A stretch of DNA of 51,484 nucleotides from Nitrospirota bacterium (GTDB lineage Bacteria > Nitrospirota > Nitrospiria > SBBL01 > JAADHI01): assembly GCA_029261215.1 (NCBI GenBank), contig JAJDBT010000031.1:1-51484 (forward strand), written 5' to 3'. The notes beneath the pieces are model-generated. The model made no database searches and had not been told where the DNA came from. It worked only from the letters and a program-made list of their open reading frames with translations. Below, one piece after another: positions 49,079-51,212 of the stretch (positions are counted from its first letter, which is position 1; every line of letters begins with the position of its first letter). The position numbers and the translations under genes were made by a program.

Positions 49079-49282
49079 TTATCCAACAGATTGGGCCATC
49101 GATGAATACTCATGGAAAGTATGAGTAAGGTCTTCGATGCCAAAGTATTGTAAAACCGCATCCCGGACATTGTTTAAAGTCTCTTCTTCGTCCATCCCTT
49201 TGCCTGTACATCCGGGCAGTTCCGGGACATAAGCTTTAAATCCGCCGTGGTCAATGGCTTTTAGTACGACTTTCAATTTCAT
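49079..49282 (-). CDS. HicB-like (UPF0150) protein
   Basis: 67 residues from ATG 49282, which has GAAAGGAG upstream; a longer reading from 49324 is not needed. The frame MKLKVVLKAIDHGGFKAYVP, then ELPGCTGKGMDEEETLNNVRDA, is the HicB partial-RNase-H fold typical of toxin-antitoxin antitoxins. No DNA-binding C-terminal domain and no HicA toxin gene is found next to it. It is therefore an orphan of the short, widespread kind, or an unrelated solo protein of the same fold. Confidence 0.75.
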   Translation of the reverse strand: MKLKVVLKAIDHGGFKAYVPELPGCTGKGMDEEETLNNVRDAVLQYFGIEDLTHTFHEYSSMAQSVG

Positions 49283-49383
49283 TTTTCGACTCCTTTCTTG
49301 GATTGCACCACTTCCTGTATTCACCGGAGTGTTTCCCGATCCCTATTTTTAGTCTACCAAATAAAATAGCAAGGGACGTGCCA

Positions 49384-49599: not shown

Positions 49600-50343
49600 T
49601 TAAATGTTTGAGTCGTTCATTTGATTGAGTGCGATATATGTCTTTTTTCCCTCCAGGAATGGATTTGCATCATGGCTCTTTGGCCCAAGGGCCATGAATT
49701 TTTCATAGGTTTTTAAAATACGGGCGGTGTAAGCCTTTGGGAGTTTTTGATCGCGTGCCTGCATATTGGCCACTCTCGCCGGGCCATAATTATACGCTGT
49801 CAGGGCAACTTCAATTTGACCAAAACGTTTGTGCAGGGTTGAAAGGTAGTGTGTACCCATTTTGATATTACTCTCCGGATCAAAGAGGGTTTTCTTTCCA
49901 TGCCAGGGGATATTCTTGGCCAGAGCAAGGGCTTTGCCGGTGTTTGGGAGAATTTGCATTAGTCCGAGCGCGCCTTTTCTTGATTTAGACCAATTGTAAA
50001 AAGAGCTTTCTTTTGCCATAAGGGCCATAATCAATTCCGGGTCATAATTGTAGGTTTGGCTTTCTTCGTAGATAAGCTCGGCAATGGTGATTTCCATTTT
50101 TTTAGACAAGCCCGTTTGATATTTTTTTAAGATACTGTGAATTTTACCCAGTTTCAGCGTTTTTATTTTTTCTGTTTTTTGAAGTGCCTGTTTTTCAATT
50201 TCTAGGAGATGAAGCGCTGCTAAACGGGAGGCGGCCACTTTGTAATCCTGTCCTGTAATCGATACAGGCGTGAAGGGCAAAATGACTAAAATCAACAGAA
50301 TGGGGACTGATTTTTTCAAAAAACCTATTCGTGTATTTTGCAT
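49600..50343 (-). CDS. Lytic transglycosylase (SLT domain)
   Basis: 247 residues. An N-terminal signal/anchor (SVPILLILVILPFTPVSITG) is followed by a helical spacer and a GH23 SLT domain (about 95-215). The catalytic glutamate is Glu112 in MAKESSFYNWSKSRKGALGL, with the family motifs GLMQILPNTG, NIKMGTHYL and ALTAYNYGPARV. It cuts glycan strands of peptidoglycan to 1,6-anhydro products, often to make room for envelope machines. GAAGGAG precedes the ATG. Its 5' leader holds a GEMM-I riboswitch and an intrinsic terminator, so transcription is likely set by a cyclic dinucleotide. Confidence 0.93.
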   Translation of the reverse strand: MQNTRIGFLKKSVPILLILVILPFTPVSITGQDYKVAASRLAALHLLEIEKQALQKTEKIKTLKLGKIHSILKKYQTGLSKKMEITIAELIYEESQTYNYDPELIMALMAKESSFYNWSKSRKGALGLMQILPNTGKALALAKNIPWHGKKTLFDPESNIKMGTHYLSTLHKRFGQIEVALTAYNYGPARVANMQARDQKLPKAYTARILKTYEKFMALGPKSHDANPFLEGKKTYIALNQMNDSNI

Positions 50344-50360
50344 TGTTTTGTCTCCTTCGC

Positions 50361-50404
50361 AAAAAAAAACCCATCTTTCTCGGATAAGAGAAGACGGGTT
50401 TTAA
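50361..50404 (-). terminator. Intrinsic terminator in the transglycosylase leader
   Basis: On the minus strand a stem starting AAAACCCGTCTT, with loop TTATCC, is closed by AAGATGGGTTTT and runs into a tract of nine to ten Ts. It lies between the aptamer and the ribosome-binding site, so it is the expression platform of the riboswitch. The loop segment CTCTTATC is complementary to GATAAGAG at the 5' edge of the aptamer (50507-50500), a possible antiterminator pairing. Confidence 0.85.
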
Positions 50405-50413
50405 AAATCTCCT

Positions 50414-50512
50414 TTTCGGCAGCCCCGCTTTCCTGAAAAGGGGATTATGCTGCCTTTTCAGGACCGGAAGCTTTGCGTCACCACCTTACGGTGGTTTTGC
50501 TCTTATCGGTCG
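50414..50512 (-). promoter_or_regulatory. GEMM-I cyclic dinucleotide riboswitch aptamer
   Basis: On the minus strand the core reads GAGCAAAACC, the hairpin CCACC-GUAA-GGUGG with a GNRA loop, then UGACGCAAAGC and CCGGUCC. A 10-bp P3 stem follows (CCTGAAAAGG with CCTTTTCAGG) and then GCGGGGCUGCCG. These match the GEMM-I aptamer of c-di-GMP class I riboswitches in order and spacing. Aligned on GCAAACC, Vc2 position 20 (G) reads A here, as in GEMM-Ib riboswitches that sense 3',3'-cGAMP, while C92 is kept. A terminator follows immediately and a lytic transglycosylase gene comes next. Ligand choice is inferred from one base. Confidence 0.85.
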
Positions 50513-50539
50513 GTTTTAAGTTTTAGTATCGTTATTCTT

Positions 50540-50567
50540 AATTTACCAAAATTATTGAATATGTCAA
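50540..50567 (-). promoter_or_regulatory. Sigma70 promoter of the riboswitch-transglycosylase transcript
   Basis: On the minus strand: TTGACA at 50567-50562, 16-base spacer and TAAATT at 50545-50540. The transcript would start near 50533, giving a leader of about 190 bases that contains the aptamer and terminator. Confidence 0.65.
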
Positions 50568-50654: not shown

Positions 50655-51212
50655 ATGAATGGTCGTCGTAAAAGTGGAGCATGGCTTTCCTTGATTCGCG
50701 AAAGCATCATAAGTGTATCGCCTCTTTTGTTTCTTATTCTGTTTTTGTTGACTTCATGCAGTCCAAAGATTATTCCGGATGAAATCGACGCTAAAATAGA
50801 CAAAACCCTTTCTTATAAAGAAATTGAGAAAAATCCGGAAAAATACCTTGGAAAGAGGGTTTTGCTGGGTGGGGAAATTATCGAAACTCATGTTACGCAA
50901 GGCGGTTCAGAAATAGAAATTCTTCAAAAACCCCTGAACTCCGGACGTGCGCCCCGGTTTACAGATGAATCCTTAGGTCGTTTTTTTATCTCCGCTACCA
51001 CGTTTTTAGATCCGGTGATTTACAAGAGCGGACGGCGGATTACTGTGGTGGGTATCGTAAAAGGCAGCAAAACAAGACAGATTGGAGATGCGAAACGGAT
51101 CTACCCGCTCCTGGGAAAAGAATATCTCCACCTTTGGGCTCCCGGCTCAAGGTCTCCTGAGGATGGAAATCCCCGAATTAGCATCGGTTTCGGGGCCATT
51201 TTTCACGATTAG
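50655..51212 (+). CDS. slp: Slp-family outer-membrane lipoprotein
   Basis: 185 residues. A long basic N-terminus leads to a hydrophobic core and lipobox LFLLTSC (Cys35). The mature part has the Slp pattern: SYKEIEKNPEKYLGKRVLLGGEI, EIEILQKPLNSGRAPRFTD, GRFFISATTFLDPVIYKSGRRITVVGIVKG. In E. coli Slp is induced on starvation and acid, and sits in the outer membrane. No ribosome-binding site precedes the ATG, and a -10 box is so close that the mRNA may be leaderless. It stands divergent from the riboswitch transcript. Confidence 0.85.
   Translation: MNGRRKSGAWLSLIRESIISVSPLLFLILFLLTSCSPKIIPDEIDAKIDKTLSYKEIEKNPEKYLGKRVLLGGEIIETHVTQGGSEIEILQKPLNSGRAPRFTDESLGRFFISATTFLDPVIYKSGRRITVVGIVKGSKTRQIGDAKRIYPLLGKEYLHLWAPGSRSPEDGNPRISIGFGAIFHD

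Follow-up and report, generated by a model that had tools for sequence, protein, structure and literature searches.

Riboswitches that respond to cGAMP are known mainly from Geobacter, and the published ones turn genes on. The Geobacter switches of the GEMM-Ib type (pilM, pgcA/GSU1761 and Gm0970) combine a GEMM-I fold having A20 and C92 with a transcription terminator, in hosts with Hypr GGDEF enzymes, and the pilM terminator takes in the 3′ strand of the aptamer; among the A20/cGAMP GEMM-I switches that we found with a published direction, the direction is ON (PMC6456294, PMC9262584). The OFF switch Cd1 of Clostridioides difficile, a c-di-GMP-I riboswitch that senses c-di-GMP and controls flagellar genes, uses a transient antiterminator under kinetic control, and its terminator is compatible with the ligand-bound aptamer (PMC9262584). 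The window analysed here, i.e. the whole 51,484-nucleotide stretch of contig JAJDBT010000031.1 from a Nitrospirota bacterium, contains a leader that shares the GEMM-I fold, A20, C92, a transcription terminator and a host with putative Hypr GGDEFs with the Geobacter switches, but differs from them in that the terminator is separate from the aptamer and is predicted to pair with its 5′ strand, in the gene behind it and in the phylum. We predict, with a probability of roughly 0.55, that this A20 (GEMM-Ib) riboswitch controls a lytic transglycosylase gene by transcription termination, as an OFF switch with cGAMP as the ligand. The analysis suggests that the sign of control is the new element, since OFF is opposite to the cGAMP switches studied so far.

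The initial annotation had placed on the minus strand a promoter, a GEMM-I aptamer with A at the position of Vc2 G20 and with C92 kept, an intrinsic terminator before the ribosome-binding site and a lytic transglycosylase gene, and had named the covariance-model score as a check on the aptamer; all of these were borne out, in the order promoter, aptamer, terminator, ribosome-binding site and gene (Table 1). RF01051 was matched over its full model (1-87), the score of 64.7 bits lying well above the gathering score of 35, and was the sole Rfam family at gathering level in the window. Membership of RF03167 (c-di-GMP-I-GGC) was rejected, the score being 57.1 bits against a cut-off of 59. In the covariance-model alignment, A50501 stands at model position 11, which we take to be G20 in Vc2 numbering, and CC (50419-50418) is kept at what we likewise take to be C92/C93; the window aptamer therefore has the A20 with a kept C92 that marks GEMM-Ib. 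The promoter boxes have 10 of 12 consensus matches. A consensus scan alone found one promoter with 2.8 expected, i.e. not above chance, and orthologous leaders have kept TTGAC(A)-16/17-TGGTAnnTT-like boxes at the same place as the promoter at 50567..50540. The terminator consists of a hairpin of ~13 bp (50402..50366) and a U tract reaching 50361, and the leader fold had a z of -4.7, with 0 of 200 shuffles equally good. Folding indicated that this terminator, which starts 12 nt past the aptamer match, can form together with the aptamer. Two neighbouring genes were also noted: a divergent gene at 50655..51212 (+) whose product matches the Slp family of outer-membrane lipoproteins (PF03843, 129.8 bits, under the NCBIfam cut-off), and a gene at 49079..49324 (-) for a small HicB-type antitoxin-like protein (PELPGC...) with neither a Pfam nor an NCBIfam match.

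Table 1. Positions of the promoter, riboswitch and gene features on the minus strand of the window
Feature	Position	Strand	Basis
Sigma-70-like promoter	50540..50567	-	-35 TTGACA 50567..50562, 16-nt spacer, -10 TAAATT 50545..50540
GEMM-I (c-di-GMP-I) riboswitch aptamer	50415..50511	-	RF01051, 64.7 bits, E = 1.8e-10
A20 (Vc2 numbering; G in c-di-GMP type aptamers)	50501	-	Covariance-model alignment; C92 equivalent = C50419
P strand GAUAAGAG, 5′ ligand-binding strand of aptamer, with A20; predicted antiterminator arm	50500..50507	-	8-11 bp complement in terminator, kept in relatives
T strand CUCUUAUC, upper stem and loop of terminator	50383..50390	-	Complementary to P strand
Small helix GGAGAU (50412..50407) : GUCUUC (50395..50390)	50390..50412	-	MFE fold, transcript ending at T strand
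Intrinsic terminator, hairpin and U tract, no overlap with aptamer	50361..50402	-	Leader fold, full-length folds
Ribosome-binding site AAGGAG	50352..50357	-	Sequence
Family-1 lytic transglycosylase gene (SLT domain), 247 aa, ATG at 50343	49600..50343	-	PF01464, 103.6 bits

The product of the gene downstream of the leader matched the Pfam SLT domain (PF01464), contained a hydrophobic N-terminal stretch resembling a signal peptide, and had a predicted catalytic Glu (E112) aligned with Slt-type enzymes of known structure. When a profile of its SLT group was run against 270 genomes of the host's class, five genes scored at least 365 bits (the host's own gene, one in G002, two in G001 and one in G019), whereas every other SLT scored 214 or less. 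All five, from four genomes and two families, are directly preceded by an A20 GEMM-I aptamer with its terminator; the link between the A20 GEMM-I leader and the SLT group is conserved. A role in pilus or secretion assembly, suggested by the initial annotation, found no support: in the stretches read, neither the SLT gene nor any of its orthologs lies in a pilus or secretion operon, and a PilZ gene comes after the G001 ortholog at C40. In the openly licensed literature we found no paper joining GEMM, riboswitch and lytic transglycosylase, and none joining c-di-GMP-I, riboswitch and Nitrospira-like names. It was also noticed that the host genome has an SLT paralogue (38% identical; C106:16483-17142, L353:7349-8206 +) located ~2 kb downstream of a putative Hypr GGDEF gene, with one gene on the opposite strand between them; no GEMM match was found beside this paralogue.

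Careful examination of the leader revealed that the P strand, GAUAAGAG (50507..50500), is complementary over 8 bp to the T strand, CUCUUAUC (50390..50383). Because the terminator is separate from the aptamer and can pair, through its upper stem and loop, with the ligand-binding strand, an arrangement recurrent in 14 leaders, we consider it fairly probable that the window riboswitch is an OFF switch, with an antiterminator formed without ligand and termination occurring with ligand. According to this model, without ligand the GAUAAGAG strand would capture the 5′ half of the nascent terminator, so that the hairpin would form too late and the transglycosylase gene would be read; cGAMP supplied by the Hypr GGDEF enzymes of the host would bind the aptamer and lock the strand in it, upon which the terminator would form and no wall-cutting enzyme would be made. 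For each of the five SLT leaders, equilibrium folding of growing transcripts gave P:T pair probabilities of 0.86-0.99 as soon as the T strand had emerged, compared with medians of 0.16-0.52 for shuffled T regions. The probability dropped to ~0 with the 3′ half of the terminator available, except for a partial return later in the G019 leader, and at full length the terminator fold beat the antiterminator by 4-9 kcal/mol; for these two reasons, the OFF model needs kinetic control. In the predicted folds of four of the five SLT leaders, the antiterminator is supplemented by a short helix directly 3′ of the aptamer core; in the window leader, it is the small helix that keeps the lower T strand within the predicted antiterminator (MFE fold). 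The lower stem of the terminator might form while the loop is paired, giving a pseudoknot.

In Cd1, the terminator is likewise separate and coexists with the bound aptamer, and the antiterminator forms ahead of the terminator 3′ half. Folding and conservation both pointed to the Cd1-type OFF layout for the SLT leader, namely a separate terminator opposed by an antiterminator made from aptamer sequence, the difference being that the Cd1 antiterminator comes from the aptamer 3′ strand (C87), whereas the main helix in the window comes from the 5′ ligand-binding strand. Alternatively, the window switch could be an A20 GEMM-Ib ON switch like those of pilM and pgcA in Geobacter, with cGAMP preventing termination and inducing the transglycosylase. 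Such a switch would agree with the direction published for its class and with the ligand-free equilibrium fold, which is the terminator, but we regard it as unlikely, since the known ON route needs a strand common to terminator and aptamer, as in pilM, and since the conserved P:T complement would have no role in it. The terminator of the SLT leader does not include the aptamer 3′ strand, and the ON layout was rejected for this leader in the absence of a common strand.

The other A20 family of the clade, designated CTTTG (CTTTGCTCAGAG), provided an internal comparison for the OFF reading. In most of its members, a hairpin, GAGCCGCCAAAGG...CCUUUGGCGGC, is built from the 3′ strand of the aptamer and is followed by U's; in the host's own copy, L003, the hairpin is present and the U tract is poor, so that the ON layout is less certain for this copy. 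Judged from its sequence, this arrangement is the published pilM ON layout. CTTTG-family and SLT-type leaders share the A20 aptamer and occur in the same genomes, but in the former the aptamer 3′ strand lies in the hairpin, and the genes code, among others, for fibronectin-type surface proteins and for multihaem cytochromes having 12-15 CXXCH motifs, close in kind to those of the Geobacter cGAMP regulon (PMC6456294). One reading method applied to both A20 families therefore predicts ON for CTTTG and OFF for the SLT type.

As to the ligand, cGAMP appears on sequence grounds to be the likeliest one for the window riboswitch, and we hold this to be quite probable. The initial annotation had proposed looking in the genome for further GEMM copies and for Hypr GGDEF enzymes, and both searches were productive. 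The host genome has four GEMM-I copies above the cut-off and a weak fifth; A20 is present in two, those of the window and L003, the latter preceding a gene for a fibronectin type III protein, and G20 in the other three. Of its ~40 GGDEF domains, two have GHxxGS instead of GHxxGD, i.e. the residue contacting the base is Ser, not Asp, as with Ser348 of GacA, which is the Hypr signature (PMC6456294), and by this signature both are Hypr candidates; the second of them lies at C94:4655-5815. The first (C106:14000-14506) belongs to a GAF-GGDEF protein whose best solved match was the Hypr domain of Geobacter metallireducens GacA (6d9m, 171 bits; next, 112), its Ser being aligned to Ser348; it differs from GacA at the cross-dimer residue 304, which is Tyr in GacA and an aligned Leu in the host protein. 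Of 41 relatives, 29 had an ortholog of this GGDEF, with the Ser kept in every one; an ortholog occurred in 23 of 24 genomes with A20 GEMM-I versus 6 of 17 without (counts compiled by hand; Fisher p = 4e-5, kinship ignored). It is conceivable that, in spite of A20, c-di-GMP is what the window switch senses, or that it does not tell the two dinucleotides apart: a response to both has been reported for the A20-type switch in front of omcST (PMC6456294), the base at position 20 steers selectivity and is not essential for binding (PMC9262584), and with ~40 canonical GGDEFs in the host genome c-di-GMP is a possible ligand. We nevertheless consider this improbable, because the genome keeps three G20 copies alongside the two A20 copies, A20 switches co-occur with Hypr GGDEFs, and the CTTTG-family genes include multihaem cytochromes, as in the Geobacter cGAMP regulon. 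Two G20 leaders of genome G006 (L128 and L129) were observed to resemble the A20 type in their stem and in terminator style but to carry GAAAAGGG, and their complement is weak; a ligand switch inside one leader family is possible.

With cGAMP as ligand, an OFF switch using the ligand-binding strand as antiterminator would stand beside A20 ON switches in the same genomes, such that one signal would raise cytochromes and surface proteins and shut off a wall-cutting enzyme; we put this forward tentatively, at slightly less than even odds. If true, a complete cGAMP circuit would be present in a second lineage, one within Nitrospirota (an A20 family, Hypr enzymes, and ON and OFF layouts), opposite gene responses to one signal would be explained, and the cGAMP signal would be tied to peptidoglycan cutting.

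Within the clade, the potential P:T pairing was present in 14 leaders, spanning 8-11 bp with, few exceptions aside, no more than one mismatch; these leaders stand in front of the five SLT genes and of genes for a response regulator, an HDOD protein, a PilZ protein (leader L121, which has G20) and others. For comparison, 114 A20 leaders of other clades sharing the GATAANAG strand had a longest complement with a median of 5 nt, and only four of them (L200, L201, L235 and L245) reached 9 nt or more, so that P:T is not general to A20 leaders and a wide spread among them was rejected. P:T scores of clade leaders differed from those of the other-clade controls with p = 4e-6, a value that takes in all 27 clade leaders with this strand kind, including those lacking the element; for the window leader p was 0.017, the weakest among the SLT leaders, and for its SLT relatives 0.003-0.01. 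Covariation between P and T was not significant, with one pair changed on both sides and 187 of 500 shuffles scoring as high, a test that is uninformative because the P strand, fixed by its ligand-binding role, hardly varies. That the complementarity is left over from the duplication of leaders and has no role, regulation taking another route or having been lost, would fit the homology of these leaders and the near-invariance of the P strand, but is very improbable, considering that several families have preserved CUCUUAUC(GG) although terminator loops usually drift, that the pairing extends to 10-11 bp in some leaders and shows a matched change on both sides in the HDOD leader (GAUAAAAG/CUUUUAUC), and that sliding the partner by 1-3 positions cut P:T pairing from 89% to 39-53%.

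Among deltaproteobacterial A20 leaders, L201, L235 and L245 likewise have a terminator complementary to the ligand-binding strand over 8-12 nt, and the OFF layout may thus not be limited to the clade of the host. In addition, four leaders of a related A20 type (CACCGATAAGAGCACA/TACA; L123, L140, L304 and L339) were found to have the same terminator complement, and the genes behind them include one for a spore-coat-U-like protein.
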